Assembly: GCA_913065105.1 (NCBI GenBank)
Contig: CAJXZZ010000015.1
Coordinates: forward strand, 1 to 44,361
DNA length: 44,361 nucleotides
Origin: an uncultured Gammaproteobacteria bacterium
GTDB lineage: Bacteria; Pseudomonadota; Gammaproteobacteria; SZUA-229
Direction: 5' to 3'
The position numbers and the translations under genes are program-made. The notes under the pieces are model-generated. The model did not search any database. It was not told the origin of the DNA and saw nothing but the letters and a program-made list of their open reading frames with translations. Of this stretch, positions 10,840 to 31,259 are shown piece by piece; within the stretch, counting starts at the first letter, position 1; each line of letters opens with the position of its first letter.

Positions 10840-10908
10840 CCTCTTATTTTAATAACATTGTGGCTAATTTAGCTGATATCAGTTGTCATTGTCGAATTGA
10901 GAAGCAAT

Positions 10909-10941
10909 CTCCATTTTTTCTCCATATTTCCTCCATCCACT
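10909..10941 (+). promoter_or_regulatory. Three CTCCAT direct repeats at exact 11-bp period (probable response-regulator site)
   Basis: CTCCAT starts at 10909, 10920 and 10931. Tandem direct repeats with 11-bp phasing are the way OmpR/PhoB-type regulators bind DNA. The array lies in the 192-base gap between pdsR (minus) and pdsO (plus), about 90-120 bases before the pdsO start. Assignment to PdsR is inference from family and position. Confidence 0.55.
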
Positions 10942-11031
10942 GCCAAAGATTGGACCACAAACAATTGTTGTAATAGCAGCGTGGAAACACAGAACAGTTA
11001 CAACACAATCACACAACCATTGGAGAGAACA

Positions 11032-11961: not shown

Positions 11962-12023
11962 AACCGGCTGAGTCAGTAACGAGACCCAGCAGACAAAACG
12001 ATATAAAAATAAGTGGTGCGACT

Positions 12024-12332
12024 ATGAGTTATGCCGATGTTTTCACTAGCGATCCTGGTTTTCATCTGACAAACCACGCAATGGAAAGATCTCAACAGCG
12101 CTGTATTCCGCCACTTATTATCCACTGGTTATGTCAGTACGGCAAACGCAAACGAAGTATTAACGGAACGACAGTGTGTTACTTCGATAGAAAAAGTTTG
12201 CGCCTTATTGCATCAGATGTCGGCCATATCATAGTAAGACGATTAGCCAGCCTGATGAACAGCTACCTGGTGATATCGGGAAATAAAATCCTCACTGTTG
12301 GTCATCGTTACAAACGAATTAAAAATTTCTAA
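12024..12332 (+). CDS. Small DUF4258-like protein inside the sortase operon
   Basis: 102 residues from the ATG at 12024; the frame can be extended upstream to a TTG at 11958, which would give 124 residues. The core HLTNHAMERSQQRCIPPLIIHWLCQYG resembles the HAxxRxxQR helix of DUF4258 proteins, and the rest forms predicted strands (TTVCYFDRKSLRLIA, YLVISGNKILTVGHRY). No signal peptide, so it is cytosolic. DUF4258 proteins are toxin-like or of unknown function, and no antitoxin partner is visible. Position between pdsO and the sortase target is unexpected. Start codon has only a weak Shine-Dalgarno. Confidence 0.7.
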   Translation: MSYADVFTSDPGFHLTNHAMERSQQRCIPPLIIHWLCQYGKRKRSINGTTVCYFDRKSLRLIASDVGHIIVRRLASLMNSYLVISGNKILTVGHRYKRIKNF

Positions 12333-12346
12333 TACAAGCCAATTTT

Positions 12347-12376
12347 TAGCTGGCACACAGATAAGTGTGCCAGCTA
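12347..12376 (+). promoter_or_regulatory. Perfect 12-bp hairpin just before the sortase-target ribosome-binding site
   Basis: TAGCTGGCACAC, loop AGATAA, GTGTGCCAGCTA. No T run follows; instead the Shine-Dalgarno GGAG comes directly after (12378-12381) and the start codon is at 12390. It may be an RNA processing or stability element that separates expression of the upstream genes from the target/sortase pair, or a translation control hairpin. Confidence 0.6.
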
Positions 12377-12389
12377 TGGAGCAAGTGAT

Positions 12390-14528
12390 ATGAACACCGT
12401 CAACACCTATTATTGCCAAACGTTTAAAACAAAACAGACAAGCTGTTCGAAAATAGTAAATTTTATTCATAAAACACTGATTGTTATCTGTGTATATCTG
12501 ATCTTCGGTTTGCTGTTTCAGTATGTGTATGCCGGCAGCAATGAAACCCCTGATCCCTACCAGTCACAACATGGTGCAGTATGGTTACTGCCTGAAAATG
12601 GTGTTTATATCGAAGCCATGCAGGTGCAGACCGATGTTGACTATGAAGTGATCGCTTCCATCGCCAGGGCAAAAGTTAAACAACGCTTTAAAAACAGCAG
12701 TTCATTATGGGCTGAAGGCATTTATGTTTTCCCGTTACCAGAAAATGCAGCGGTTGATCATTTTAGAATGATCATCGGCGAGCGGGTTATTGAAGGTCAG
12801 GTAAAAGAGCGTGTCGCGGCTAAAAAAACCTATGAGTTAGCAAAATCAGCAGGTAAAAAAGCCAGCCTTATCGAACAGCAGCGGCCTAACGTATTTACCA
12901 CATCGCTGGCCAATATTGCGCCCGGAGAAGAGATAATCGTCGAGTTCGAATTTCAACAGCTGCTGGATTATAAAGATGACAGTTATCGTTTGCGCTTCCC
13001 TATGGTCGTGGGACCCCGCTATCATCCTGGCGCACCATCATTGCAAGACCTGATCGATCCTGACGCAGACAAAACAAGCGTCTACACAGAAACCGACCCA
13101 GTCGCTAACGACCATAACCCAACACGCATCCATGTATTACTTGATGCGGGTGTCAGTTTATATGACCTAAGCAGTTCTTATCATCGTATCAATATCAATC
13201 AGAGCAGTGATACCCGTTACATCATTTCAACCATTGGTGAAAATATTGTTAGTGATCGTGATTTTGAACTGGTATGGAAACCGCAATTAAATAATGACCC
13301 GCAACTGTCTGCCTTTAATGAAAAGGTTAACAACAGCGAACGTGATACCAGCAACTACACCATGGTGACATTACTGCCACCTGACCTCAGTCAGCTGCAA
13401 CAAAAGATACAGGCACGTGATGTGATTTTTGTTATCGATGTATCAGGATCGATGGCAGGCACCTCTATCGAACAGGCGAAGGCCGCATTGATCATTGCAC
13501 TGGATGGTCTTAATTCTATCGACCGTTTTAACATCATCTGGTTTAACAATGACAGTGATAGTTTATATCCGAAAGCGGTTACTGCTTCATCGCAATATAA
13601 AGACTACGCGAAACGTTTTATAGCTAAGTTAGAAGCTGGTGGTGGCACAGAGATGTTAGCCGCAATGAAACTGGCACTGTCACCACAGGAATCATTTTCC
13701 CGCTTTCGACAGGTAGTATTTATAACCGATGGCAACATCAGTAATGAAACTGAATTATTTAATATTATTGATAAACAGCTAGGCGACAGCCGTTTATTTA
13801 CTATCGGTATAGGTTCTGCGCCCAACGCTTATTTTATGCGTAAAGCCGCACAACAGGGTCGCGGCACATTCACCTATATCGGTGATATAAATGAAGTGCA
13901 CAAAAAAACCACGGCATTGTTTAAAAAACTTGAAACACCGGCACTGGTTAATATCCAACTGCAGATGGACGATCTACATACAGATGATAATGAATATGAA
14001 ATATTCCCCAAAGTAATACCTGACTTATATGCCGGTGAAACCGCCAGCATTTTAATAAAAAGTAAAAAAATGCCTGAAAACATTACTCTGAGAGGTGATT
14101 ATGGCAACACCGAATGGCAAAACAGCGCACCTTTAAAAACCACTTCTCAACGTGGTATTCGGGTTGCCTGGGCACGTGAGAAAATATCCGCATTGATGAA
14201 TCAGCACCGTCAGTCAAAAAATGAGGCTGAGTCTGAATCAATTCGACATGAAGTGACCGACACTGCACTGCAGCATCACCTGGTCAGTCGTTATACCAGT
14301 CTGCTAGCCGTAGATGTTACGCCGGTAAATGCCGGAGGTATGTTACATCACGAGCGGATGAAAAATAATCTTCCCTCTGGCTGGAAAAATTCGACATCGG
14401 CTAACGATCTTATGCTGGCACGAGCGGCCACTGGCTCAAAACTTAACTTACTGCTAGCAGTCATCTTCTTCATCAGCGCTGTTTCGCTGTATCGATGGAA
14501 TAAGCAGAGAGATGAGACTCATGCATAA
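12390..14528 (+). CDS. Marine proteobacterial sortase target protein (VIT + von Willebrand A)
   Basis: 712 residues. Long N-terminus with one hydrophobic segment (about 27-48, ending VYAG) acting as signal. Then a VIT domain (about 60-175; GIYVFPLPENAAVDHFRM, QRPNVFTTSLANIAPGEE). The von Willebrand A domain (about 340-520) has a complete metal site: DVSGSM near residue 349, GGGTEM near 417 and FITDGNIS near 446. The C-terminus has a sorting-signal layout: polar LARAATGSKL, hydrophobic LNLLLAVIFFISAVSLY, basic tail RWNKQRDE. The expected LPxTA-like motif is degenerate (LARAATGS). Overlaps the sortase gene by 17 bases, fitting a dedicated one-substrate sortase. Confidence 0.9.
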   Translation: MNTVNTYYCQTFKTKQTSCSKIVNFIHKTLIVICVYLIFGLLFQYVYAGSNETPDPYQSQHGAVWLLPENGVYIEAMQVQTDVDYEVIASIARAKVKQRFKNSSSLWAEGIYVFPLPENAAVDHFRMIIGERVIEGQVKERVAAKKTYELAKSAGKKASLIEQQRPNVFTTSLANIAPGEEIIVEFEFQQLLDYKDDSYRLRFPMVVGPRYHPGAPSLQDLIDPDADKTSVYTETDPVANDHNPTRIHVLLDAGVSLYDLSSSYHRININQSSDTRYIISTIGENIVSDRDFELVWKPQLNNDPQLSAFNEKVNNSERDTSNYTMVTLLPPDLSQLQQKIQARDVIFVIDVSGSMAGTSIEQAKAALIIALDGLNSIDRFNIIWFNNDSDSLYPKAVTASSQYKDYAKRFIAKLEAGGGTEMLAAMKLALSPQESFSRFRQVVFITDGNISNETELFNIIDKQLGDSRLFTIGIGSAPNAYFMRKAAQQGRGTFTYIGDINEVHKKTTALFKKLETPALVNIQLQMDDLHTDDNEYEIFPKVIPDLYAGETASILIKSKKMPENITLRGDYGNTEWQNSAPLKTTSQRGIRVAWAREKISALMNQHRQSKNEAESESIRHEVTDTALQHHLVSRYTSLLAVDVTPVNAGGMLHHERMKNNLPSGWKNSTSANDLMLARAATGSKLNLLLAVIFFISAVSLYRWNKQRDETHA

Positions 14529-15312: not shown

Positions 15313-15810
15313 ATGAATGCACAAGTTAGTCGAATGCAGTTCCTTCGTGGCGATTTCAAAGGAAAAGAAATGCCGCTTCGTCCACCCTGGGCGATTAGCG
15401 AAAGCCTATTCACCGACATCTGCACTAACTGTGGTGATTGTATATCTCAGTGCCCCACACATATCATCAAACAGGCTCGTGCAAACTTCCCTGTAGTCGA
15501 TTTTTCCGCCGGTGAATGTTTATTTTGCGAACAATGTCTTGATGCATGCAAACCACGTGCCTTACTTAAAACAAATGAAAAAAGCACTCCCTGGTCGATC
15601 AAAGCGTCCATAAACAATGATACCTGCATCGCCCATCAGGGTGTGGAATGCCGCAGTTGTTTTGACCCCTGTGAGGCTCGCGCGATAATGATGCCGCCAC
15701 GACTGGGTGGCATTTCAATTCCGATTATCAGCACAGACAGTTGCACCGGTTGTGGCGCCTGTCTATCAGTATGCCCGGTGCAGGCCGTAACCATAGGCCA
15801 GCTACAGTGA
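15313..15810 (+). CDS. napF: Ferredoxin-type protein NapF
   Basis: 165 residues, normal for NapF, a cytoplasmic iron-sulfur protein that helps maturation of NapA. Three classic cluster motifs: CTNCGDCISQCP, CLFCEQCLDACKP and CTGCGACLSVCP near the C-terminus. A further Cys group (CIAHQGVECRSCFDPCEA) carries the longer spacing seen in this family. First gene of the operon; starts after GGTGAAG and just downstream of the FNR-type promoter. Confidence 0.95.
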   Translation: MNAQVSRMQFLRGDFKGKEMPLRPPWAISESLFTDICTNCGDCISQCPTHIIKQARANFPVVDFSAGECLFCEQCLDACKPRALLKTNEKSTPWSIKASINNDTCIAHQGVECRSCFDPCEARAIMMPPRLGGISIPIISTDSCTGCGACLSVCPVQAVTIGQLQ

Positions 15811-15849
15811 GCGTGACACAATGAATTCGATTATAACCAGGATAAAACA

Positions 15850-16080
15850 ATGAATATAAGCGGCGTTCTCGTAAAAGCCTATCCGGAGCATCTACTGTCG
15901 ATCGAGAAAGTTCTCACCACGATGGCAGGCGTAGAAGTACATGGTAACAATAAAGATGGTCGTATCGTGATCACAGTAGAGGATGAGACTGCGAACAACA
16001 TCTCTGACACATTAGTGCAGATACAGGATGTTCCCGGTGTCTTGTCAGCCGCCATGATTTACCACCAGTTTGAAGAATGA
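15850..16080 (+). CDS. napD: NapA chaperone NapD
   Basis: 76 residues. Small ferredoxin-like-fold chaperone that binds the twin-arginine signal of NapA and holds it back until cofactor is loaded. Pattern: MNISGVLVKAYPEHL at the start, GVEVHGNNKDGRIVIT in the middle, and VPGVLSAAMIYHQFEE at the end. It lies 39 bases after napF, preceded by AGGA, and 84 bases before napA. Confidence 0.92.
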   Translation: MNISGVLVKAYPEHLLSIEKVLTTMAGVEVHGNNKDGRIVITVEDETANNISDTLVQIQDVPGVLSAAMIYHQFEE

Positions 16081-16164
16081 CAGTTGAAGATTAATCGTAA
16101 TACATAAATTTAGCCGTACATAAACAGATCAAAGAATAAATACAGGTCAACAGGAGGCCGAGTA

Positions 16165-18702
16165 ATGAAACTAACACGTAGAGATTTCATTAAGACAAAC
16201 GCTATAGCAGCCACAGCTACCGCTGCAGGTATAACAATACCCGGCGTCAAAGAAGCGTTAGCAACGACAAAAGACGATATCCGCTGGGACAAAGCCCCCT
16301 GCCGTTTTTGCGGTACTGGATGCAGCGTACTGGTTGGTACCAAAGACGGTCGAGTGGTTGCTACTCAGGGTGACCCGGATGCACCGGTTAATCGCGGACT
16401 TAACTGCATCAAAGGTTATTTCCTCTCCAAGATCATGTACGGTAAAGACCGTTTGACTCAGCCATTATTGCGTATGAGTAATGGTAAGTACGACAAGGAA
16501 GGTGAATTCACCCCGGTCAGCTGGGACAAAGCGTTTGATGTAATGGAAGAAAAATTCAAAGCCGCATTGAAACATGATCTGGAAGTTAACAAGGGCAAGA
16601 AACCGGAAGAGATCGTCTCTACGGTCGGCATGTTCGGCTCTGGACAGTGGACGGTATGGGAAGGTTATGCCGCTTCGAAATTATACAAAGCCGGATTCCG
16701 CTCGAATAATATTGACCCGAACGCACGCCACTGTATGGCCTCTGCGGTAGGTGGTTTTATGCGTGCCTTTGGTGCGGATGAACCCATGGGTTGTTACGAT
16801 GACCTGGAACACGCCGATGCCTTTGTTTTATGGGGCTCTAATATGGCGGAGATGCATCCTATCTTATGGTCACGTTTAACCGATACCCGTCTGACCAAAG
16901 AGGGCTGCGAAGTGCATGTGTTATCCACTTTCGAACATCGTTGTTTCGATCTTGGCGATAACAACATGATATTTACCCCGCAGACTGATCTGGCTATATT
17001 GAATTATATCGCCAACTATATCGTGCAGAATAAAGCCTACAGTAAAGACTTTATCGGCAAACACGTTAACTTTAATAAAACCCCAACTGACATCGGTTAC
17101 GGGCTTCGTCCAGAGCATCCACTGGAGAAAAAGAAAACCGGCAAAGGTGGCAAACTCACCAAGATCTCCTTCGAAGATTACGCAAAATCACTCGAACCTT
17201 ATACCCTTGAATATACCTCTGAAATTTCCGGTGTACCTGAAGAAAAGCTTTTGCGTTTAGCAAAACTGTATGCCGATCCTAAGAAGAAAATAACCTCATT
17301 CTGGACCATGGGTTTCAATCAGCATACCCGCGGCGTCTGGGCGAACGGTCTGATGTACAACGTGCATCTATTGACCGGTAAAATCTCTGAACCTGGCAAT
17401 GGACCATTCTCACTGACCGGACAACCTTCTGCCTGTGGCACCGCGCGCGAAGTGGGTACTTTCTCACATCGTCTGCCTGCTGATTACGTGGTTAAGAAAA
17501 AACCGCATCGTGATCTGGCTGAAAAAATATGGAAACTCCCCGAAGGCACCATTCCAGGCAAACCCGGTTATCACGCAGTATTACAGAACCGTATGTTAAA
17601 AGACGGCAAGCTAAATGCCTACTGGGTGCAATGCAATAACAACATGCAGGCGGCGGCAAACATTAACGAAGAAGTACTGCCCGGTTATCGTAACCCTGAC
17701 AACTTCATCGTAGTATCTGACCCCTACCCGACCGTTACAGCGATGGCAGCCGACCTGATCTTACCTACAGCTATGTGGACAGAGAAAGAAGGCGCTTACG
17801 GTAATGCTGAACGCCGCACACAGTTCTGGCGTGAACAGGTTAAAGCACCGGGTGAATCCAAATCGGATATGTGGCAGGTGGTCGAATTCTCCAAACGTTT
17901 CAAAGTGGAAGATGTCTGGCCGGAAGACTTAATTGCCAAACAGCCCGAAGTACGTGGCAAAACTTTGTATGAAGTTTTATACGCTAACGGTCAGGTGAAT
18001 CAGTTCCCTAAACAAACAGTAACTGACAGTGCTGGTAATAACTACAGCAACCATGAGATGGACGACTTTGGTTTTTATATTCAAAAAGGCCTGTTCGAAG
18101 AATACCGACGTTTCCAGCATGAAGGCCCAAAAAAAGGACACGAACTGGCACCATTCGATGTTTACCACAATACCCGTGGACTACGTTGGCCGGTGATCGA
18201 CGGCAAAGAAACTTTATGGCGTTATCGTGAAGGTTATGACCCATACGTTAAAAAAGGTGAAGATATACGCTTCTATGGCAGAGGAGACGGTAAGGCAAAT
18301 ATTATTACTGCGCCTTATGAGCCTGCCGCTGAAAGCCCTGATAAAGAATATGATCTATGGCTGTGCACCGGCCGCGTTCTGGAACACTGGCATTCAGGTT
18401 CGATGACACGCCGTGTGCCTGAGTTATATCGTGCCTTCCCAGATGCGGTTATCTTCATGCATCCGGATGATGCCAAAGAACGTGGACTGCGCCGTGGACT
18501 GCCTGCAACCATTCAGAGTCGACGTGGCGAGATTACTGCGCGTATAGAAACACGCGGCCGTAACAAGGTGCCTAGAGGTCTGATCTTTGTTCCCTGGTTT
18601 GATGCCAGTCGTCTGATCAACAAGGTCACTCTCGATGCGACAGATCCATTGTCCAAAGAGACTGACTACAAAAAGTGTGCGGTTAAAGTCGTTAAGACTT
18701 AA
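16165..18702 (+). CDS. napA: Periplasmic nitrate reductase catalytic subunit
   Basis: 845 residues. Reduces nitrate to nitrite in the periplasm using a bis-MGD molybdenum centre and one [4Fe-4S] cluster. Twin-arginine signal TRRDFIK, cleavage likely after ALA (residue 33). Cluster cysteines are Cys46, Cys49, Cys53 and Cys81 (spacing 2-3-27). The molybdenum ligand is probably Cys190 in [12 protein letters not shown]. Excellent Shine-Dalgarno AGGAGG before the ATG. All catalytic features intact. Electrons arrive from NapB, which is fed by NapC and NapGH. Confidence 0.98.
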
Positions 18703-18745
18703 GACAAAACACAGAGCAGATAACCCATAGACGATAGTAGCAGTA

Positions 18746-19636
18746 ATGAATACGCAACCTACACAAGCACAACGCAGTGCATCACTTAACAGCCGGCGGA
18801 AGTTTTTGTTAGATTCCGCGCGCGCTGCAGGTGGCGCTACCATCGTTGCATTGGGCTTAGGTCTGTATTCACGTCAGTCGGTATCACTGCCTGCTTCAGC
18901 CCTGCGCCCCCCCGGTGCACTCGATGAAAAAGATTTTCTTGGCGCCTGTGTCCGCTGTGGTTTATGCGTACGCGATTGTCCATTTGACACGTTAAAGCTG
19001 GCTAAATTTGGTGACAAAGTTGCCACCGGCACGCCATACTTCACGGCTCGCGACATCCCCTGTGAGATGTGTGACGACATTCCCTGTGTTAAAGCATGCC
19101 CTACCGGCGCGCTGGATCACGCACTGGAGAACATCGATGATTCACGAATGGGGCTGGCGGTTTTAATAGATGAAGAAAACTGTCTGAACTTTCAGGGCTT
19201 ACGTTGCGATGTCTGTTATCGCGTATGTCCGGTTATCGACAAAGCCATCACCCTGGAAATGAAACATAATGTACGCAGTGGCAAACATGCGTTATTCATC
19301 CCTACCGTACATTCAGATTTTTGCACCGGTTGCGGCAAATGCGAACGTGCCTGCGTACTGGAAGATACTGCCATCCGCGTTATGCCCTATGAACTGGCAA
19401 AGGGCGAACTTGGCCATCATTATCGCTGGGGATGGAAAGAAAAAAATAAGGCAGGTGAAAGTCTTGTCGCCCCGGACATCAAACATCAGTACAACCTGCC
19501 CCGGGGACAGTCTTACGATATTGAAGGTGAAGGCCTCATCATCGATGATGATTCATCAAATGACACCCCGTTTGGCACTAATCCGCTGGACACTCTAAAC
19601 CAGAATTCACTGAATGTACGGGGGGCTGAAAAATGA
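18746..19636 (+). CDS. napG: Ferredoxin-type protein NapG
   Basis: 296 residues. Periplasmic iron-sulfur protein which with NapH forms a quinol dehydrogenase feeding the Nap system. Twin-arginine-like signal with SRRKFLLDS after a 15-residue lead, then four cysteine motifs: [43 protein letters not shown] and [11 protein letters not shown]. The final 55 residues are polar and acidic, longer than I expect for NapG. The stop overlaps the napH start (ATGA). Confidence 0.95.
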
Positions 19637-20577
19637 GCCGTCCACTCCACCCGGGTAGAGATGCAAGAGTAAACAAAGGCTGGCTAATAGCGAATAAATG
19701 GCTGTTCGCTCGACGCTTCAGTCAGCTGTCCATCCTGTTTTTATTCTTAGTAGGGCCGTGGTTTGGAATCTGGATAGTAACCGGTAATTTAAATTCCAGC
19801 CTCATCCTTGAAACAGTACCGTTAACCGATCCCTATATATTATTGCAAAGTTTGTTCGCCGGTCATTCTCCGGAAACAAACGCGATCATAGGCGCAGCGA
19901 TTATTTTATTATTTTATATTCTTGTCGGCGGCCGCGTTTACTGCTCATGGGTTTGCCCGATAAATATGGTCACGGATGCGGCCCAATGGCTGCGTGAGCA
20001 ATTCAAAATTTCCGGCTCATCAACCATGTCACGTAAGACCCGTTACTGGATTTTAGCGGCAACATTGGTGCTCGCATTCATCACTGGCAGCATCGCCTGG
20101 GAGATGGTCAACCCTGTTTCTATGTTACATCGTGGCCTGATCTTTGGTATGGGACTGGCGTGGTTTATCGTGCTCGCCGTTTTTTTGCTGGACCTGTTAG
20201 TCAGCAGACGTGGCTGGTGCAGTCATCTATGTCCGGTTGGCGCATTCTACAGTTTACTTGGAACCCACAGTTTAATACGTGTACGTGCAGATGCACGCGA
20301 GCAGTGTGACGATTGCATGGACTGTTTTATGGTCTGCCCCGAACAACAGGTTATTCGGCCTGCACTAAAAGGCCACGTGAATAAAAATAGTAGTGACACT
20401 ATCGGTCCGGTGATCACTTCATCCAACTGTACTAACTGCGGTCGCTGTATAGATGTATGCGCAAAAGATGTTTTTCACTTTGGCTTACGCACAAACAATG
20501 TAGTCAAAAATAATACCAGCAATTTAAAAAATATTAACAAACAACTCAACCATTCTTCTGGAGTAGAGGTCTTGTGA
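19633..20577 (+). CDS. napH: Quinol dehydrogenase membrane component NapH
   Basis: 314 residues. Several membrane helices; two conserved membrane-side motifs CSWVCPINM and CSHLCPVGA, then two cytoplasmic [4Fe-4S] motifs [12 protein letters not shown] and [11 protein letters not shown]. It pairs with NapG to oxidise quinol. Overlaps napG by 4 bases and touches napB, so the genes are translationally coupled. Confidence 0.95.
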
Positions 20578-21023
20578 TGATGAAAAAAATAACAACTATC
20601 GTAGTACTACTGGCAACTGTAGGTTTTGGCTCTCAAGCAGCCGCCGAAACAGTCAGCTCTCTTAGGGGTGCAACTGATATCGATCAGGATTCATCCGCAC
20701 CCGCCGCAAAAAAATACAATAAGGACAAAGAGCCTATCGCGCGTGACTACGTACAACAGCCACCGTTGATACCACATAAGATTACAAACTATCGTATCAA
20801 TCTCAAATCGAACAAGTGCATGAGTTGCCATAGCTGGAGCAACTACCGTGAAGCCAATGCCACAAAGATAAGTCAGACACATTTTGAGTCACGTGATAAA
20901 AATGTGCTCGCCAATGTTTCAGCACGACGTTATTTCTGTACGCAATGTCACGTTCCACAGGTTGGTGCGCAACCATTAGTCGAAAATGATTTCCAACCGA
21001 TAACTGCAATCTCTGGTCAATAG
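20577..21023 (+). CDS. napB: Diheme cytochrome c subunit NapB
   Basis: 148 residues from the ATG at 20577, which has AGAGG seven bases upstream; a GTG one codon earlier and an ATG one codon later are alternatives. Signal peptide ends near QAAA|ETVSS. Two heme sites, CMSCH and CTQCH, and the YVQQPPLIPHKI and ARRYFCTQCHVPQ patterns identify NapB, the small electron-transfer partner of NapA. Confidence 0.95.
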   Translation: MMKKITTIVVLLATVGFGSQAAAETVSSLRGATDIDQDSSAPAAKKYNKDKEPIARDYVQQPPLIPHKITNYRINLKSNKCMSCHSWSNYREANATKISQTHFESRDKNVLANVSARRYFCTQCHVPQVGAQPLVENDFQPITAISGQ

Positions 21024-21079
21024 ATTCTGGACAATAGTTCGCCAGATATAGTTAAAATAATATTTATGGAACATTTATC

Positions 21080-21709
21080 ATGAGCAATAAAAACACTAAA
21101 GAATGTAACGACATGATACTTTGCAGAATATGGCAGGGCTTAAAAAAGCCCTCCGTAAGATATTCACTGGGCACGATACTGATCGTCGGTTTTATCTCAG
21201 GTATCATCTTCTGGGGTGGTTTTAATACCGCGATGGAGATGACCAACAACGAAGAGTTCTGTATCTCCTGTCATGAGATGGAAGACAATGTTTTTCAGGA
21301 ATACAAAGAAACCATTCACTACAGTAACCGTACCGGCGTACGTGCTACCTGCCCTGACTGTCACGTACCCAAAGAATGGCAGCATAAAGTCGTGCGTAAG
21401 ATACAGGCCAGTAATGAGTTATTGCATAAAGCACTCGGCACCATCAATACACGTGAAAAATTTGAAGGTAAACGATTAGAGCTAGCCAAACACGTCTGGG
21501 AAGCAATGGAAAAAACAGATTCGCGAGAATGTCGAAACTGCCATAACTTTGATCACATGGACTTCACAGAACAGGGGCGTCGTGCAGTAAAAGCACATTC
21601 TGAAGGCCTCGATGCAGGTAAAACCTGTATTGACTGTCACAAAGGTATCGCACATGAATTACCCGACATGCACGATGTTGATCCGGGTTCTTCGATAGGC
21701 GACATTTAA
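21080..21709 (+). CDS. napC: Tetraheme quinol dehydrogenase NapC
   Basis: 209 residues, NapC/NirT family. One N-terminal membrane anchor (about 31-52, SLGTILIVGFISGIIFWGG) followed by a periplasmic domain with four heme sites: CISCH, CPDCH, CRNCH and CIDCH. Takes electrons from menaquinol or ubiquinol and passes them to NapB. Last gene of the operon, which is closed by a long hairpin at 21715. The presence of both NapC and NapGH gives two quinol entry routes. Confidence 0.96.
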   Translation: MSNKNTKECNDMILCRIWQGLKKPSVRYSLGTILIVGFISGIIFWGGFNTAMEMTNNEEFCISCHEMEDNVFQEYKETIHYSNRTGVRATCPDCHVPKEWQHKVVRKIQASNELLHKALGTINTREKFEGKRLELAKHVWEAMEKTDSRECRNCHNFDHMDFTEQGRRAVKAHSEGLDAGKTCIDCHKGIAHELPDMHDVDPGSSIGDI

Positions 21710-22930: not shown

Positions 22931-24307
22931 TCAGTTAATACCAAGGCCTTTAAGTTTCCGGTAAATAGTCCGCTCGCTGATACCTAGCGCATCAGCAACT
23001 TTTTTTCGATTACCCTGATATTGATCGAGCAAATCATTTATGTGCTGAGCTTCGATGTCTTTTAAAGTTATCTGCTCAGTCACCCCTGCCGATGCGCTCG
23101 CTGCATGATGAATGTCATGACTATCAACTCCATCTGGATCAATACAATGCGGCAGATTATTGATCACACTATCGATTAGTGCGGCATCTATTCTACGATT
23201 ATGACTACGTGTTGCTGCAATAAATAGAACATTTCGTAACTCGCGGACATTACCTGGATACTTATAGTTTTTTAGATGCAGATAAGCATCAGGCGTTAGA
23301 TCGTAACTACTATGCATGGAGCGATTGATACCCTTAAGCAGGTTTTTAGCTAACACAGGCACATCATCGATACGTTCACGTAGACTAGGCAGACGGATAT
23401 TCAAACAGGCAATGCGGTAGTACAGGTCTTCACGAAATGCCCCAGCAATCACCGATTCCCATAAGTGTCGATTGGTCGCGCAAATAATTCGAACATTGAC
23501 CTTGCGTGTTTTTTTGCCACCAACGCGTCGGTATTCGCCATTTTCCAGAACACGGAGTAACTTGGCTTGTTGAGAGGCCGGCAGATCACCCACCTCATCA
23601 AGAAAAATTGTGCCGCCGTCAGCAAGCTCGAACAGTCCCTGTTTGTCACCGACACTACCCGTGTAAGCGCCATTGGCATGACCAAACATCTCGGACTCAA
23701 ACAGGCTATCAGTAAACACGGTGCTATCAATAATCTGAAATGCTTCATTACAGCGCGATGAATGCTGGTGAATATATTCAGCCGCTAACTCCTTACCAGT
23801 ACCTGTTTCGCCTAGTAACAATACCGGCGCATCTGAACTGGCGGCAACATTCAACTGATCGACACATGCGATGAACTCGGATGATTCGCCGACCATGCGC
23901 TCACTGCCCGGCATATGAGCATCCATCGATGATATCTTCTCGATACATTCGCCAAGGAACAGTTCGTTATTAGAGCCGCGAAGAGGAAAAGCAGAAACTT
24001 TTACATGATGCATACGATGATCGGCATCGCAATGGATATGCGCACAAACTTTTGCCTCGCCGTTACTGAATACCTGATCATACGGACAATCTTCACCTTC
24101 TTCACTACAGGGGTGATCATTGCCATGACTGACCTGGTAGCACATGCTGCCAACCGCATCGGTGCTCGTTACCCCATACTCCAGTTCATAAGCTTTATTC
24201 ACAGCGAGAATATGATACCCCTTGTCGATTACAACAAAAGGCCTCTCGTGACTATTTACCAGCGATAGCAGATCGATTGATGTTTCAGTTTCAACTTTCT
24301 TATCCAT
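22931..24307 (-). CDS. Sigma54-dependent activator with cysteine-rich PAS domain
   Basis: 458 residues from the ATG at 24307, chosen because GAGGTG lies four bases upstream; a GTG at 24334 is the alternative. PAS-like sensor (about 10-125) holds five cysteines: Cys56, Cys67, Cys74, Cys88, Cys93 (CYQVSHGND..PC), suggesting metal, iron-sulfur or redox sensing. AAA+ domain (about 138-365): Walker A GETGTGKE (166-173), GAYTGS loop at 213-218 (usual GAFTGA, so two changes), Walker B FLDE. C-terminal Fis-type helix-turn-helix (NRKKVADALGISERTIYRKL). A matching -24/-12 promoter sits before the giant cytochrome gene at 31069-31085, its most likely target. Confidence 0.93.
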   Translation of the reverse strand: MDKKVETETSIDLLSLVNSHERPFVVIDKGYHILAVNKAYELEYGVTSTDAVGSMCYQVSHGNDHPCSEEGEDCPYDQVFSNGEAKVCAHIHCDADHRMHHVKVSAFPLRGSNNELFLGECIEKISSMDAHMPGSERMVGESSEFIACVDQLNVAASSDAPVLLLGETGTGKELAAEYIHQHSSRCNEAFQIIDSTVFTDSLFESEMFGHANGAYTGSVGDKQGLFELADGGTIFLDEVGDLPASQQAKLLRVLENGEYRRVGGKKTRKVNVRIICATNRHLWESVIAGAFREDLYYRIACLNIRLPSLRERIDDVPVLAKNLLKGINRSMHSSYDLTPDAYLHLKNYKYPGNVRELRNVLFIAATRSHNRRIDAALIDSVINNLPHCIDPDGVDSHDIHHAASASAGVTEQITLKDIEAQHINDLLDQYQGNRKKVADALGISERTIYRKLKGLGIN

Positions 24308-24341: not shown

Positions 24342-24391
24342 ATATGACGTAAATGACATACAGCACATGGACAACTAACCTAACATGCCAG

Positions 24392-24413
24392 ATATGTCAT
24401 ATTCATGACATAT
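24392..24413. promoter_or_regulatory. Perfect inverted repeat ATATGTCAT-N4-ATGACATAT (operator candidate)
   Basis: 9-bp arms with a 4-base spacer, in the divergent region between the sigma54 activator and the thioredoxin gene. Extra TGACATA half sites occur at about 24352 and 24461, the latter forming part of a TTGACA -35-like hexamer at 24460. Likely binding site of a dimeric regulator, perhaps the activator itself. Confidence 0.5.
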
Positions 24414-24520: not shown

Positions 24521-25057
24521 ATGGTAAAACTCAGAGTATTTCGAGCGCCTGCAATCTTAATGTTGGCGTGCCTGGTATCATCAGTATCTGTTTATGGCAC
24601 GCAACTAGAGCCTTATACTGCAACTGCAGAATTCACCCTGATCGATACCAACGACCAGACACGTTCACTGTCTGACTACAAAGGCAAAGTCGTACTGGTA
24701 AATTTCTGGGCAAGCTGGTGTCCGCCCTGCATTTACGAAATGCCGGAACTGACACGCCTTAAAAAGCAGCTGTCCGACCGGCCATTCGAAATACTGGCGC
24801 TCAATGTCGGTGAAAAAAAATATAGGGTAAGAAAATTCGCCAAGCTCATCAACTTTAATTTACCGGTACTGCTGGACACATCAAAGAACACCTTTGATGC
24901 CTGGAACATCAAGACATTACCAACATCTTTCCTAATCGACACAGACGGTAATATCCGTTATCGTGTTCGTGGCAATCCTGGCTGGGAAGAGAAAGAGACC
25001 ATCACTATTATCGAACAGCTGATCTCAGAGCAAAGTAAAAAAACACCAATACCTTAA
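24521..25057 (+). CDS. TlpA/ResA-like thioredoxin family protein
   Basis: 178 residues. N-terminal hydrophobic signal or anchor (about 8-26), then a thioredoxin fold with active site WASWCPPC near residue 68 and the cis-proline loop LPTSFLID. Such periplasmic proteins reduce disulfides, typically keeping heme-binding cysteines of apocytochromes reduced for maturation. With many multiheme cytochromes nearby, that role fits but is inference. The start has a poor Shine-Dalgarno. Followed 26 bases later by the DUF2059 gene, probably co-transcribed. Confidence 0.88.
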   Translation: MVKLRVFRAPAILMLACLVSSVSVYGTQLEPYTATAEFTLIDTNDQTRSLSDYKGKVVLVNFWASWCPPCIYEMPELTRLKKQLSDRPFEILALNVGEKKYRVRKFAKLINFNLPVLLDTSKNTFDAWNIKTLPTSFLIDTDGNIRYRVRGNPGWEEKETITIIEQLISEQSKKTPIP

Positions 25058-25083: not shown

Positions 25084-25548
25084 ATGAAACAAGCTAACTT
25101 TCTGCCATCAGTAATGTTACTGGTGCTAACCCTTGCAGCCACAGCATTATACGCAGCAGACAATGACACGCATCTTCAACAGGTAGAAACCCTGTTCAGG
25201 CTGACGCAGATGGAAAAGAAAATACAGGAAAGTGTGGATTCTGTTGTACAGTTACAGATCAGACAAAACCCGCAACTACTTACGCACGAAAAAACCATGC
25301 ATGAATTTTTCACAAAATACATCGGCTGGAATGCACTTAAAAACGAACTTGCAGACATGTATATGCAAAAGTTTACTGAAAAAGAGCTGACGGAAATAAA
25401 TGCTTTCTACATCACACCGGTGGGACAGAAAGTTATCACCGTGTTACCAGAGCTCGTACAGGAACGTAACCAGCTAGCCATGATGCGACTACAGCAGAAT
25501 ATTGGTGAATTACAAAAGATTATCGGTGAGCAGAAAACCGGCCAGTAA
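25084..25548 (+). CDS. DUF2059 family exported protein
   Basis: 154 residues with a Sec signal peptide (to ALYA|ADN, about residue 21). All-helical mature part with the DUF2059 signature FTEKELTEINAFYITPVGQKVI (about 98-119). Function unknown; the family is widespread in proteobacterial periplasms. Shine-Dalgarno GACGAGG precedes the ATG by nine bases. Second gene after the thioredoxin-like gene. Confidence 0.85.
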   Translation: MKQANFLPSVMLLVLTLAATALYAADNDTHLQQVETLFRLTQMEKKIQESVDSVVQLQIRQNPQLLTHEKTMHEFFTKYIGWNALKNELADMYMQKFTEKELTEINAFYITPVGQKVITVLPELVQERNQLAMMRLQQNIGELQKIIGEQKTGQ

Positions 25549-25733: not shown

Positions 25734-27239
25734 CTATTCAGTAGGTGGTGGCGTAATGTATTTTTGCATGCCTTCTAAACGTTGCTCTGTAATTGAACCC
25801 TGCTCTTTAGATTTCACGGTAAGTGCTACAATGTAGTCAGCTTCTTTCTGGAAATGCTTGTTGAGTTCATCCTCGTACACTGCCACCTCAAAATGATTCT
25901 TGCGTAGATCCACAACATAGTCATTGAACTTATTCTTCATGTACAGCCTGAGTGCAAGCCTGCTTGTCTGTGGGTCATCGAAGTTCTGATATTGCGCATC
26001 TTTCACATCCAGTACTTTGACCAGATGCCAGCCGGCAGGTGATTCGACAGGTTCGCCAATGACCTCGGGTTCAAGGTTGAAGGTGAAGTCATCCAGTTCA
26101 TCAAAACCGCTACCCTGCCCAACCCAGCCCAATTCACCCAATGTACGTTTTGCATTAGGATCTAACGAGTACTGTTGCGCTGCCTGGAACATAGTAATCT
26201 TGCCGCTTTCTATATCCGCCTTGATCGATTCAGCTTCTTCTTTGGTCTTAACCACGACCATCTGTACCTTACGAGTCTCCGGTACGCTAACCTTATCCAT
26301 GTTATCGACGAAGAAGGTCTTAAGTTCATCATCAGATGGCTTCCAGCTATCGATCAATTTAGCGCGGTGAACATTGATCAGGTGTGTCTTGCGATACTCA
26401 GCAGTACGTTTAACGAATTCAGCATCCTTATCCATTCCAGCAGCTATCGCCTTGTCCACCATCAATCTATTATCGATATACTCCTGTAGTCGCATCAGAC
26501 GTTCTTCATCATTATCGACATAAAATTCGGCCAGTGAGGCACGATAATCAGCGCCCCGCATCTGTACCTGTACATCACTCCAGGTGATGCGTTTGCCTGC
26601 TAAGGTCGCAACGATATCAGCATCAGAACGTCCAGCATCAGAGTTAGTGCTCAGTACATCTTCATTAACAGTTATCTCGGTACCGGCACGCAGACGTTCA
26701 CGCATGCTGTCCCTCAGTTGCGTGAATCTCTGCTTACGGATCATGGCTTCAATGGCAAGTTTTGAATCATCATTCAACTCACCTTCCGGGTTGATATTCG
26801 AATTATAATACGCGATAACTTCCTCTTCGCTGACAGGAATATCTCCGATCAGAACCTTTGACTTATACATGGTCGCCAGCACGGCATCCTCAAATTTTTT
26901 CATATCTGAGACGTATACCGTCAGTTTATCTGTACCTTTTTCCTTCGCGTCCAGATACACCAGGTTCGCACTGATCACTTTATCGAGCAGGGTTATCATG
27001 ACCTTGTTACGCTTAGGCGTACCTAGTGCAGGTATCGACAGACCAACCATCGCTGAGCTATTCAGCATGGTATTGAGCTGACTGAAAGTAATTACCTCAT
27101 CGCCAACCTGTGCAATAACACCTTCTGCTTTGACAGCCTGTTGACTGGTTTTGTCTGATGGTGCTTCATTACTACAGCTCCCTAATAATAAAGATATAAA
27201 CAGGACGGATAAAAGTTTAGAAAAAAATTGATACTGCAT
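25734..27239 (-). CDS. PpiC-type peptidyl-prolyl isomerase lipoprotein (SurA-like foldase)
   Basis: 501 residues from the ATG at 27239, which has GGGAA about eight bases upstream; a TTG at 27254 is the alternative. Lipobox LLGSC with Cys22. Layout is SurA-like: helical N-terminal chaperone part (about 40-280), parvulin domain (about 295-400; SVPETRKVQMVVVKT, AKRTLGELGWVGQGSGFDELDDF, SPAGWHLVKVLDV), helical tail. It lies downstream of the giant nonaheme cytochrome on the same strand, with a terminator between. It may be a foldase for exported cytochromes; that is inference from context. Confidence 0.88.
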   Translation of the reverse strand: MQYQFFSKLLSVLFISLLLGSCSNEAPSDKTSQQAVKAEGVIAQVGDEVITFSQLNTMLNSSAMVGLSIPALGTPKRNKVMITLLDKVISANLVYLDAKEKGTDKLTVYVSDMKKFEDAVLATMYKSKVLIGDIPVSEEEVIAYYNSNINPEGELNDDSKLAIEAMIRKQRFTQLRDSMRERLRAGTEITVNEDVLSTNSDAGRSDADIVATLAGKRITWSDVQVQMRGADYRASLAEFYVDNDEERLMRLQEYIDNRLMVDKAIAAGMDKDAEFVKRTAEYRKTHLINVHRAKLIDSWKPSDDELKTFFVDNMDKVSVPETRKVQMVVVKTKEEAESIKADIESGKITMFQAAQQYSLDPNAKRTLGELGWVGQGSGFDELDDFTFNLEPEVIGEPVESPAGWHLVKVLDVKDAQYQNFDDPQTSRLALRLYMKNKFNDYVVDLRKNHFEVAVYEDELNKHFQKEADYIVALTVKSKEQGSITEQRLEGMQKYITPPPTE

Positions 27240-27421: not shown

Positions 27422-30400
27422 TTACCAGCCGCAGGTAGTTCCGGTCCGGTCTTGAGACACATAGGCCCAAACCAGCTCGGCAACACGTCCTTTGGTCAGA
27501 TGTTCCTTCCAGTCCTTATCGTTACAGGAAACTTCGTTGTACTCATCTCCATGACAGCCTTGACATGCTGTGTCCCGTGGATTTTCAAATGCAGGATCAC
27601 CGATAACATGGCCCAACAGTTCTATCTCAACCTTGTCCATGGTCAGACGAGAAGTACGGCCTTTATCCGCATGTTCCATCCATTCCTCTTCATTAGCTGA
27701 GACCTCATCAGCCTCATCACCATGACAGTTCTGACAAACACCACCGTTTTGCAGTGGGCTGGCTTCTTCTGTATAGGTATGCATCCACTCGACTGCACGA
27801 TCGAAGTTACCACTGACACGCTGACCTTTGTACTCAAGATCATCAACCCATCTGGGTATACCGTCATTGCCAGCCTCATGACAGGTACCACACTTGAGCG
27901 GACCGTGTGAACCATCTTCATTCAATGCAGCCGCCTGAGCATAACTCGTAGTATCGATATTCGGAGTTACCGGATACAGACCATGGATCGACTCATGACA
28001 ACCCTGGCAGCTGATGTTCTGATGACCTTTTGAGTAACGCATCAGACTCGCTTTACGTGGATAGTTGAATGGAGGATAAGCATTGATGTTACCGCTCTGC
28101 TCAACAAATGGCGCTGAGTGACAGTCCGCACAGTGTGGCTCACCGGGTGATAACCAGTGGTCACGACCGTCGGTGGCAGCTGACATCGGTACAGGGACCG
28201 CTACTGAACCAGCAGGTAAAGTAGCCTGTGCTGCAGCAACACAATCCGGTGTAGTACAGAAGTCCATCGCATTCACACTGAAGTCACCATCGCCGTCCAC
28301 TGTTCCACAGATATGAAAAGCGGGTCCACCCTCAGCGCTACAGTCAATCAGACCGCTACCACCGCCTGTTGAGCAGGCTGCCGCACTGGTGGTATTAACC
28401 TCAACAGTTGCCACAGCGCCATCGTGTGCAGGATCAATGGCCCCTCCAAAGTAACCCGCAACATAGTTACACAGACCAGGGTCTGTATCCCAGATGGCAT
28501 GGGTAAAGTCACCCAGCGGGTTACCCTCAGTAGGATCTAACCAGGCAATTGCCTGCGCCTCGGTAGTACCCACAGCCGCAGCAACTGCTGCCAGTGTGGG
28601 TTCACCACGTGGATTATTCAGACCAACACCATGCACCAGGCTTTCCATATTCTCAGCTTTCCACATTTCTTGACCTAACTGGTTATGACAGTTAGTACAC
28701 CAGATGCCATTACCGTCATTGGCAACATTGTCTGCCAGGTACTGACCGACTGCATTCAGGTGCTCAGGCGTCTCAGCACCATCGGTATCTTTACCCGGAT
28801 TAGAATGCACATCGCGACCGACGAAACAACCACCGTTTGCACCACGGTTGTCGCCATTGGCGTACTTGTTGCCACCTGCCAGTGTAATTGGATAGCCATT
28901 CATATCACCATCGGAACGATGCGCAGGATGACAACCCTGACAACCACCATCACGACCCAGTGAGTCAGCAAACGCAATCGGCCCACCAGTGCTTTCACCA
29001 CGGTGATTATTATGGATCGCTTCGGTGATCGGTTTGATCAGTGTTCCTGTAAGACATGGTTCTGTTCCAAGCTCACTGCCCGCACCACATTCAGCTGACT
29101 TGACCGCCGCGATCACGTTATCAGCATGACAACGCTGACAGATCACAGACTCATGACCCAGACGGGTGTTCTGTGGTGCTTCACCCGTAACATCTGTACC
29201 CGGGTAATTCGCTGCAAAGCTGGTGCCGTGCTGAATATCATGACCGTTCAACATACTTACCGCCGCACTCTTCAGACGTGAATACCAGTCTGAATCGCCT
29301 GCACCAGTATCGATGTCATAGTACGCGTTCCAGTAGTTATACTCTGCCTGCACCATCGCATACTGTGCTGGATCACTGTTCGGACTGTTGATTACCATCA
29401 GCTGGCCACCACCCTCATTGGCCGCATTATCAATCATGGTGCCGTCAATAGGATTCGAGTGACAACGCTCACAGTTTGGAATATCAATCGGTGCGGTACC
29501 AAATCCGATCACCGGATCGCCTTTACTATCTAAAGTCGCACTACCTTTTCCACTCGGTCCGTCTGGATCATAGTCATACATCTGCGCTTTCATCGCCACG
29601 AATGGACGCACTGAATCTTCGTTCAACAATCCAGGATCACCAAAGAAGTCAACACTGTCCTCAAACGGGGTCAGTGGTAGACCAAGGGCTTCCCAGATAT
29701 CGGGAGAGGTCAGCATAATCGGCAAGTTTTCCAGCACTTTCATCTGGGTAAATACAACCGTGCCTTTGTCACCAGAGAAGGTCAGTACGTTACCGTTAGA
29801 GAAACCACCGCAATCATTAGCAACCGTTGGGTTAGCTGGATCACCATTTTGTGTCACCGGCCCCAATGGATGCAGCGCTGCACCACAGTCTTCAGGATAA
29901 ACAACGTGGCCGTTCACACCAAGACGGATCTTGTCTTTTTCCAGTGATGTACCAGTTGAATTATCGCCTTCCAGATTTTCATAGAAGTACAGATGGTTCC
30001 ATACCGCATTCTGGTAGTTATCAGCCGCATCATCGGTATCACCATCACCCTTTACCACACCCTGTGCACCGTTGTAAGAACCAACAGTGACCTTGCCTGT
30101 TATTGGATCAACCTCCGCTGAATCAAACGTGGTATTCCAGGACATCAGTGAGTTACCTTCGGCGGCACTGATCAATGTACTGCTCTGTGCTTTACCACGG
30201 CCATCGTTACGTGGCTGAGCATCATGCCAGTATTCCAGCACGTATTTCTTGAAATTGCCCTGTGAATCTACAGCCTTATCACGTACCACAGTTTCACGAC
30301 CTAACGCATCCAGCCCCACTTTCGGATCACCTGCCAACAGTTCGGGGAAATCAGCGCCGTCAGTGCCTTCCGGTTTTACGACCTGTGCCAAAATAGAATT

Positions 30401-30946
30401 GTATGCTGGCAAGACACAGCAGTAAGCAAACTCGAAACCGGTACAGTGCATACCGAGCTCGTAGTTCATCATGATCTTGAAATCTGTCTGGTCAGCAAAA
30501 CCGCCACCACCCGGTGGGGGTGTACCGCCGCCATCATCACAATCGGAAGGGGCATTCTCTACTGATTTTTCATCCGATTTACCGTCTGACTGTTCAGCAC
30601 GAACTCGACAGGGAATTGATGAAGGTGAATATTGACGAACTCGCCAGCTGTCGCCATCGACCTCATCGGTACCGACTAATGCACCAGTATCAGCATTGGT
30701 AACAGTTACATCTTTACGATCACTGCCTTTACCATCAACCTCGATGCGGTTTCGCTCAGAATTCCATTTTGCATTATCGATCTTGAATTTGGTGCTTCCT
30801 CCACCCCAATCACCCCTATCACCTCTATCACCTCTATCACGGGCATAAGCACTAGTCGATATTGCACATATAAGAATGAGCGGAACTACAAGTATGGCAA
30901 CTGCCACTACTATTCGAGATAACTGTTTAAAAAGACCTGTGATCAT
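27422..30946 (-). CDS. Giant nonaheme c-type cytochrome, exported
   Basis: 1174 residues from the ATG at 30946 (GAGGGAG upstream); a longer frame to 30991 is less likely because the signal sequence follows 30946. Signal peptide about 10-35 (ending SAYA|RD), a DRG-repeat tract, a small beta domain, a proline-glycine linker near 145, then a heme-free half with MHCTGFEFAYCC near 167. Nine CxxCH heme sites sit between about 490 and 1130: CERCH, CQRCH, CQGCH, CTNCH, CADCH, CQGCH, CGTCH, CQNCH, CQGCH. The last two head a duplicated unit (HGDE..EVS.N...W.EH..KGR). Size and export suggest periplasmic or outer-surface electron transfer. I do not recognise a characterised homologue. A sigma54 promoter candidate lies upstream. 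Confidence 0.9.
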   Translation of the reverse strand: MITGLFKQLSRIVVAVAILVVPLILICAISTSAYARDRGDRGDRGDWGGGSTKFKIDNAKWNSERNRIEVDGKGSDRKDVTVTNADTGALVGTDEVDGDSWRVRQYSPSSIPCRVRAEQSDGKSDEKSVENAPSDCDDGGGTPPPGGGGFADQTDFKIMMNYELGMHCTGFEFAYCCVLPAYNSILAQVVKPEGTDGADFPELLAGDPKVGLDALGRETVVRDKAVDSQGNFKKYVLEYWHDAQPRNDGRGKAQSSTLISAAEGNSLMSWNTTFDSAEVDPITGKVTVGSYNGAQGVVKGDGDTDDAADNYQNAVWNHLYFYENLEGDNSTGTSLEKDKIRLGVNGHVVYPEDCGAALHPLGPVTQNGDPANPTVANDCGGFSNGNVLTFSGDKGTVVFTQMKVLENLPIMLTSPDIWEALGLPLTPFEDSVDFFGDPGLLNEDSVRPFVAMKAQMYDYDPDGPSGKGSATLDSKGDPVIGFGTAPIDIPNCERCHSNPIDGTMIDNAANEGGGQLMVINSPNSDPAQYAMVQAEYNYWNAYYDIDTGAGDSDWYSRLKSAAVSMLNGHDIQHGTSFAANYPGTDVTGEAPQNTRLGHESVICQRCHADNVIAAVKSAECGAGSELGTEPCLTGTLIKPITEAIHNNHRGESTGGPIAFADSLGRDGGCQGCHPAHRSDGDMNGYPITLAGGNKYANGDNRGANGGCFVGRDVHSNPGKDTDGAETPEHLNAVGQYLADNVANDGNGIWCTNCHNQLGQEMWKAENMESLVHGVGLNNPRGEPTLAAVAAAVGTTEAQAIAWLDPTEGNPLGDFTHAIWDTDPGLCNYVAGYFGGAIDPAHDGAVATVEVNTTSAAACSTGGGSGLIDCSAEGGPAFHICGTVDGDGDFSVNAMDFCTTPDCVAAAQATLPAGSVAVPVPMSAATDGRDHWLSPGEPHCADCHSAPFVEQSGNINAYPPFNYPRKASLMRYSKGHQNISCQGCHESIHGLYPVTPNIDTTSYAQAAALNEDGSHGPLKCGTCHEAGNDGIPRWVDDLEYKGQRVSGNFDRAVEWMHTYTEEASPLQNGGVCQNCHGDEADEVSANEEEWMEHADKGRTSRLTMDKVEIELLGHVIGDPAFENPRDTACQGCHGDEYNEVSCNDKDWKEHLTKGRVAELVWAYVSQDRTGTTCGW
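30809..30840. repeat. 9-bp tandem repeat encoding Asp-Arg-Gly units
   Basis: ATCACCTCT units (first one ATCACCCCT) repeat about 3.5 times, giving DRGDRGDRGD just after the signal peptide of the giant cytochrome. Nearly identical units suggest recent slippage. Confidence 0.85.
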
Positions 30947-31068
30947 GGTCTCATCTCCCTCAGATTTTGTTTCATTTATTGCCGAGAACACCCGTTGAAT
31001 TTTTCATTCTGATGTACTTCACGCTGATTATTATTTCGGTAAGGCAAAGTATACCGATAACCACCAAA

Positions 31069-31085
31069 TGCATTTAACATGCCAA
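31069..31085 (-). promoter_or_regulatory. Sigma54 (-24/-12) promoter of the giant cytochrome gene
   Basis: Read on minus: TTGGCATGTTAAATGCA. GG and GC are exactly 10 bases apart and it fits TTGGCACG-N4-TTGCA with two mismatches. Transcription would start near 31059, about 113 bases before the chosen start codon. A sigma54 activator is encoded 7 kb away. Confidence 0.68.
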
Positions 31086-31188: not shown

Positions 31189-31259
31189 GAGTGGCATTAT
31201 GACTGCCAACAATGGCATGCTGAGGGGGGGGGTGATTTACTACCAAAACCTAGAAGAGT

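Follow-up and report, generated by a model that had tools for sequence, protein, structure and literature searches.

A conserved sigma54-type promoter and an upstream palindrome suggest control of a nine-haem cytochrome by a FisR-like activator in an uncultured gammaproteobacterium

The window analysed here, i.e. the whole stretch of 44,361 nucleotides from an uncultured gammaproteobacterium, carries a gene for a multihaem c-type cytochrome and, on the same strand, a gene for a sigma54-dependent activator with a cysteine-rich PAS domain. This raises the question as to whether the activator controls the cytochrome, through which DNA elements it might do so, and to which signal it responds. An original prediction, made from the sequence alone, had proposed a sigma54 promoter for the cytochrome and had read the whole as a signal-controlled module of extracellular or periplasmic electron transfer.

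The proposed promoter is a minus-strand element, TTGGCATGTTAAATGCA, at positions 31085-31069 (31069-31085 in forward coordinates), and both this position and its GG-N10-GC spacing were verified. Its close fit to the -24/-12 consensus was likewise borne out: with an approximate sigma54 weight matrix, it scores 17.5 of 20.3, the highest value on either strand of the window, and it is also the only perfect TGGCA-N7-TGCA in the window. None of 1000 shuffles of the 400 bp upstream of the cytochrome reach this score, and a site of at least 17.4 is present in 11 of 100 dinucleotide shuffles of the whole window. Taken alone, the element is mildly unusual, not strong, and the case for it is carried by the comparison across cytochrome loci, six of which have such an element at a distance of 120-125 nt from the start codon. 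Transcription from sigma54 promoters starts 11-12 nt downstream of the -12 region, which would place the start of the cytochrome transcript at approximately 31059. Beside the consensus core and a conserved palindrome upstream of it, the other components expected of such a promoter are present in the genome (3.06 Mb in 147 contigs), which has one rpoN gene and eight sigma54 activators with a complete sigma54-interaction domain. The claim that the protein encoded at 22931-24307 is the only such activator in the window is correct; with eight in the genome, however, it is not the sole candidate.

The cytochrome (27422-30946, minus strand) comprises 1174 amino acids with nine CxxCH motifs and a signal-peptide-like N-terminus, and its match to the Pfam Cytochrome_C7 family is above the cut-off. 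At this length, the term 'giant' used in the original prediction is generous. The ATG at 30946 appears better placed as a start than the GTG at 30991, being preceded by AGGGAGA and followed by a stretch that resembles a signal peptide by eye, and it leaves a gap of 122 nt to the promoter element. The N-terminal part varies among orthologues (PKD-, cadherin- or dockerin-like by eye), and the motif NYELGMHCTGFxFxYCCVLP is common to all eight aligned relatives. An MtrC-type Pfam domain remains below its cut-off (27.7 bits versus 30), the best PDB match by sequence has an E-value of 0.064, and a profile search of the PDB returned no relative up to an E-value of 1. An AlphaFold2 model of the protein was set aside on account of its mean pLDDT of 36.5.

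Downstream of the cytochrome, at 25734-27239 on the minus strand, lies a gene for a PpiC-type peptidyl-prolyl isomerase (Pfam Rotamase families; lipoprotein-like by eye), a frequent partner of this cytochrome family that is also present in loci L044, L045, L046, L075 and L076. The PpiC gene follows the cytochrome after 167-182 bp and this gap contains terminator-like hairpins, so that a single transcript for both genes is not certain. In a class-wide sample of 369 genomes, 14 possess a relative of the cytochrome at an E-value of 1e-60. Twelve of these lie outside the family of the window's genome and provided 13 regions: one with a nine-haem orthologue (genome G400), ten with seven-haem relatives, and two (L114, L116) in which the relative is masked by longer antisense frames and its haems were not counted. 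A PpiC gene is labelled beside the cytochrome relative in 11 of the 13 regions and an activator in none of them; the only sigma54 site scoring at least 14 (14.3, L116) and the only strict palindrome (L124) found among them are not located before a cytochrome. The cytochrome-PpiC pair is probably the older unit, and sigma54 control a lineage-specific addition.

Within the set of cytochrome loci, the distance from the end of the -24/-12 element to the start codon is 120-125 nt in the window and in L045 (genome G008), L047 (G005), L049 (G004), L044 and L046. The respective scores are 17.5, 16.5, 16.4, 16.0, 13.2 and 12.8; when each upstream region was subjected to 1000 dinucleotide shuffles, its score was reached in 0, 1, 0, 4, 10 and 21 of them. 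No such element was found upstream of the cytochrome in L043 (G011; best score 5.4), L075 (G031; 5.5) or L112 (G400; 3.4), and the contig of G011 has no sigma54-like site above 10.6, though this genome possesses an activator orthologue. A further locus, L048, has a run of Ns at 9285-9352, where the element would sit, with nothing above 5.6 beside it. Among the nine loci with a nine-haem orthologue, the element is therefore present in five, absent in three and unjudgeable in one. The original prediction had recommended such a scan of homologous loci and had named loss of the element as evidence against itself; the outcome is mixed, with a kept position in six loci and absence from G011, G031 and G400. 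The sixth locus is L049, whose nine-haem cytochrome is only distantly related and belongs to another family, yet is preceded by both the element and the palindrome. A blastn comparison of the upstream regions of the window and L049 (word size 7) aligned the -24/-12 element over 17 nt (94%, E 0.02) and the right half of the palindrome with the bases that follow it over 27 nt (81%, E 0.02), the two top matches being coding parts. An IHF consensus was found in one of nine upstream regions, that of L049. As a separate observation, at 9491-11073 of L075, in a genome without the activator, the cytochrome cluster ends with two sigma54-like sites (14.7 and 17.2) that have no palindrome and precede genes for a TlpA-like protein and for a PAS-LuxR protein rich in cysteines.

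The palindrome, which had been missed by the original prediction, is a candidate activator-binding site of the form TGNCA-N4-TGNCA at 31204-31217 (TGCCATTGTTGGCA in the minus-strand reading). Its 5' end lies 132 bp upstream of the 5' end of the element in the window, and the corresponding distances are 133 bp in L045 and L047, 131 bp in L049, 123 bp (and 155 bp) in L044, and 146 bp in L046. It takes the form of a perfect inverted repeat, TGCCA-N4-TGGCA, in the window, L047, L049 and L044. The looser form was found in all 13 sigma54-type promoters assigned to the neighbourhood or targets of the activator. Of these, six precede cytochromes, another five are divergent from the activator gene (G008, G005, G024, G019 and G015) and the remaining two precede multicopper oxidases (G022 and G015). 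It is because five of these promoters lie beside the activator gene itself that the activator can be tied to the cytochrome. In a control set of 23 other sigma54-like sites (scores of at least 12.5, 25 loci), which lie within or next to other genes or come from loci that lack the activator, none had an N4 or N3 palindrome in the same interval. In dinucleotide shuffles, on average 0.1 and at most 2 of the 13 promoters had an N4 palindrome, which has a base rate of 0.046 per 190 bp; since the 13 promoters are related sequences assigned by eye from sigma54 hits, and the looser form was written after some of them had been seen, these counts are not to be taken as probabilities.

The combination of the strict palindrome and the -24/-12 pattern occurs in three of 54 genomes of the family, once in each and always before a multihaem cytochrome, and its reversed control in none. 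The strict palindrome occurs at 21 places in the genome, versus 7 for its reversed control, and is thus not specific by itself. Furthermore, palindromes with N3 spacing were found in six of the 13 promoters and with N8 spacing in seven, hence the spacing rule is not a clean one, and each promoter may contain several half-sites. Two further features of the sequence may be recorded here. Just upstream of the palindrome, a run of nine G on the plus strand (31224-31232), which is absent from the L045 and L047 promoters, could vary in length. The coding sequence of the cytochrome holds five copies of TGACA-N4-TGRCA, starting at 27552, 27723, 27996, 28929 and 29127 (span 27552-29140), which are possibly codon-driven.

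Domain searches and alignment define the activator (22931-24307, minus strand) as a FisR-like protein with a PAS domain containing C56, C67, C74 and C88, an AAA+ domain with the motifs GETGTGKE, FLDE and GAYTGS, and a Fis-type HTH. Divergent from it on the plus strand are genes for a TlpA/ResA-like thiol-disulfide protein (24521-25057), the same neighbour as in G008, G019 and G024, and for a DUF2059 protein (25084-25548), the two being paired in the same manner in L045, L094 and L095. A second TGNCA-N4-TGNCA palindrome, TGCCAGATATGTCA, lies between the activator and the tlpA-like gene at 24386-24399. The sigma54 element that several relatives have in this gap is not recognizable in the window; the only site found scores 10.2 and stands in a non-homologous place, for which reason a sigma54 promoter for the tlpA gene of the window was rejected.

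The activator orthologue adjoins the cytochrome in L044 and L046, is 3.1-3.6 kb away from it in the window and in L045, and in L049 a window-type activator is encoded downstream of the other nine-haem cytochrome; the window-type activator genes are 53-86% identical. Across the 54 genomes of the family, five possess the cytochrome (E-value of at most 1e-100), nine the activator (at most 1e-130) and four both, a co-occurrence with a Fisher P of 0.0018 that ignores shared descent and incomplete genomes. Searches at the level of the order, with stricter cut-offs, gave the same 54 genomes as those at the level of the family. The pair is thus found together in four genomes, but an activator without the orthologous cytochrome, named in advance as a sign against the pairing, was encountered in five of nine. 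In one of these five, G004, the element and the palindrome precede a nine-haem cytochrome of another family. The original reading is thus supported in part, namely as regards a sigma54-type promoter that can be paired with the activator of the window by kept element position, linkage and a common palindrome.

The wider surroundings of the activator gene also merit description. It adjoins a periplasmic nitrate reductase-like cluster followed by a moaA-like gene (15313-21709; napF was named by model match and the other nap genes by reading), and moaA- and ferredoxin-like genes are also found beside the activator in L049. A proteobacterial dedicated sortase system occupies positions 8147-14528, with PdsO and the sortase target above the NCBIfam cut-offs and the histidine kinase below.

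As regards the signal, the PAS domain of the activator contains cysteines at positions 56, 67, 74, 88 and 93. The 'five-cysteine PAS' of the original prediction is accurate for this protein, but only C56, C67 and C74 are invariant in an alignment of 12 sequences, among them three paralogues and one gene each from Pseudoalteromonas and Cupriavidus metallidurans. C88 is a feature of the window type (kept in seven sequences of this type and not in the two paralogues compared), and C93 is present only in five sequences of the same genus. Two histidines, H90 and H92, are also invariant among the aligned activators. Instead of the redox or metal sensing that had been suggested, the spacing of C56, C67 and C74 points to a sensor of sulfane sulfur, FisR, since it matches that of C53, C64 and a third cysteine, C71, although a metal is possible as well. 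In FisR of C. pinatubonensis, a tetrasulfide joins C53 to C64 (PMC8614764) and three conserved cysteines are employed (PMC9774590); according to a review, such cross-links raise its ATPase activity (PMC12170894). The FisR of A. baumannii is described as responding to sulfide yet lacking these cysteines (PMC7315123), and the tetrasulfide chemistry is therefore not general. The C. metallidurans gene is 39% identical to the window activator over 97% of its length and is divergent from a gene for a metallo-beta-lactamase-fold protein and a Pyr_redox_2 gene, which we interpret as pdo and sqr; the region between these genes yielded no good sigma54 site (best score 8.3). The FisR-like activator gene of Pseudoalteromonas xiamenensis (L098, 5659-7293) is divergent from cydP/cydB, encoding cytochrome bd.

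The genome of the window also encodes a paralogue, 44% identical to the activator, that adjoins a gene which is SQR-like, though far below the cut-off of the NCBIfam SQR model. The same arrangement is found in G005, and not within the stretch seen in G002; in terms of loci, the paralogue is beside the SQR-like gene in L077 and L080. A FastTree phylogeny separates the window type, together with the L044 and L046 proteins, from the paralogues and the Pseudoalteromonas and C. metallidurans proteins with a support of 0.991. The region of the paralogue gene start contains TGNCA-N3-TGNCA in 16 of 22 distinct loci and the N4 form in one of 22, whereas upstream of window-type activators the N4 form is found in eight of 11 and the N3 form in three of 11; in this count L085 was left out (no ORF with the motif), L080 and L041 were treated as one locus, and several regions end at contig ends. 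Across 229,027 bases of loci, the N3 form occurs 18 times and the N4 form 56 times. In L077 and L080, N3 palindromes also precede the SQR-like gene. The upstream regions of the SQR-like genes have no good sigma54 site (best score 11.6). In C. metallidurans, however, an N3 inverted repeat and an N4 match occur together in the intergenic region, and an N4 match is likewise found at the Pseudoalteromonas gene, so that the spacing rule may hold within this family only. It is conceivable, and we put it forward tentatively and with some doubt, that a duplicated FisR-type sensor has been rewired: the copy beside SQR would use N3 sites, and the other copy would control multihaem cytochromes and other redox proteins of the envelope through N4 sites, coupling intracellular reactive sulfur to extracellular or periplasmic electron transfer, with about one base pair of spacing largely separating the two regulons.

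The targets of the activator are not limited to cytochromes. In L054 (G015), a single promoter is followed by genes for a multicopper oxidase, for a CusB-like membrane-fusion protein that contains a heavy-metal-binding domain, and for an RND pump of the AcrB type, an operon that looks like one for copper efflux. The divergent element of G015 has no listed gene of at least 100 amino acids in front of it, and the nine-haem cytochrome of this genome (L050) has no element (best score 3.2). The promoter likewise precedes a multicopper oxidase in G022. In G008 it is directly followed by tlpA, and in G019 and G024 by a short reading frame, a terminator-like hairpin and the tlpA-DUF2059 pair. The short frame seen between the sigma54 element and tlpA in L094 and L095 (MNKWIPISL...), with a terminator-like hairpin after it, is a possible small-protein target of the activator. 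In G005 (L056, 1545-4613), a five-haem protein of 1003 amino acids with Big_9/cadherin repeats is encoded divergently from the activator, directly behind a sigma54 element and an N4 palindrome.

The explanation which we favour, and consider probable though by no means secure, is that the FisR-like activator switches on the nine-haem cytochrome through the sigma54 promoter and the palindrome in response to sulfane sulfur. What has been observed directly is the presence of both DNA elements, how they are conserved and spaced, and the linkage of the genes. From these we infer a mechanism in which TTGGCATGTTAAATGCA would be the core of the promoter for the cytochrome and perhaps also for its PpiC partner. 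The activator (22931-24307) would bind the palindrome at 31204-31217 and loop to sigma54-RNA polymerase at 31085-31069; sulfane sulfur would cross-link C56 and C67 of the PAS domain and thereby turn on the ATPase. Upon build-up of sulfane sulfur, the cytochrome would be made and would move electrons across or outside the envelope, its location, electron partner and substrate being presumptive.

The same promoter and activator could, however, serve another signal. The PAS cysteines may sense a metal, such as copper, or some other thiol-reactive signal, the regulon then being an envelope response to metal or thiol stress. We regard this as unlikely, but copper has to be taken seriously as a rival, given that one target operon resembles copper efflux; multicopper oxidase genes follow two of the 13 promoters, a TlpA-like thiol protein is a frequent neighbour, and the three cysteines could bind a metal together with the invariant H90 and H92. 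On the other hand, the cysteine spacing is that of C53-C64 in FisR, the nearest paralogue neighbours an SQR-like gene in two of the genomes looked at, and metal resistance is not an obvious role for a multihaem cytochrome. It may also be that a different one of the eight enhancer-binding proteins acts on the promoter, most plausibly the FisR-like paralogue, whose recognition helix is nearly the same; genes at its level of identity (43-46%) are present in 13 of 18 genomes of the genus, and the N3 palindromes in six of the 13 promoters point in the same direction. Nevertheless, the paralogue loci have the N3 form in 16 of 22 cases and N4 in one, the cytochrome promoters have N4 in six of six, and linkage to the cytochrome is seen, of the two proteins, for the window-type activator only, all of which makes this alternative very improbable. 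Finally, the element may be a chance match and the cytochrome may be transcribed from another promoter, as could be argued from the equal sites in 11 of 100 window shuffles and from G011, G031 and G400, where there is none. With a position 120-125 nt from the start codon in six loci and a matched palindrome upstream, chance is hardly credible.

Control by a FisR-like activator responding to sulfane sulfur would connect reactive sulfur with multihaem electron transfer in gammaproteobacteria by a regulatory route that can be tested, and would provide a predicted regulator for a cytochrome family for which no solved relative was found. It further suggests that two paralogous enhancer-binding proteins may be kept apart by approximately one base pair of half-site spacing. 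A literature search, with subscription papers mostly outside its reach, retrieved nothing on a FisR-like sigma54 activator controlling a multihaem cytochrome.

How, then, does this system compare to those already described? With FisR of C. pinatubonensis, the activator shares the architecture of a sigma54 AAA+ activator with an N-terminal sensor and a Fis HTH, the C53/C64 spacing and three conserved cysteines. It differs in being located beside nap/moaA, tlpA and the cytochrome, in its extra cysteine C88 and in having a multihaem cytochrome as a target; because linkage to sqr/pdo is not seen in the window, it is classed as FisR-like, not as FisR. The N4 palindromes may be a further difference. 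The cytochrome resembles MtrC/OmcA and OmcS/OmcZ in its nine c-type haem motifs and its export signal (by eye), and cadherin/Ig-type domains occur in the G004 cytochrome. Unlike MtrC/OmcA, it has an MtrC/MtrF domain below the Pfam cut-off, a PpiC partner and no PDB relative by profile (E-value 1). To promoters of the NtrC/NorR class, the locus is similar in its GG-N10-GC core, an inverted repeat 86-179 bp upstream and an activator gene nearby, and it is distinguished from that class by the form of its palindrome, TGNCA-N4-TGNCA.
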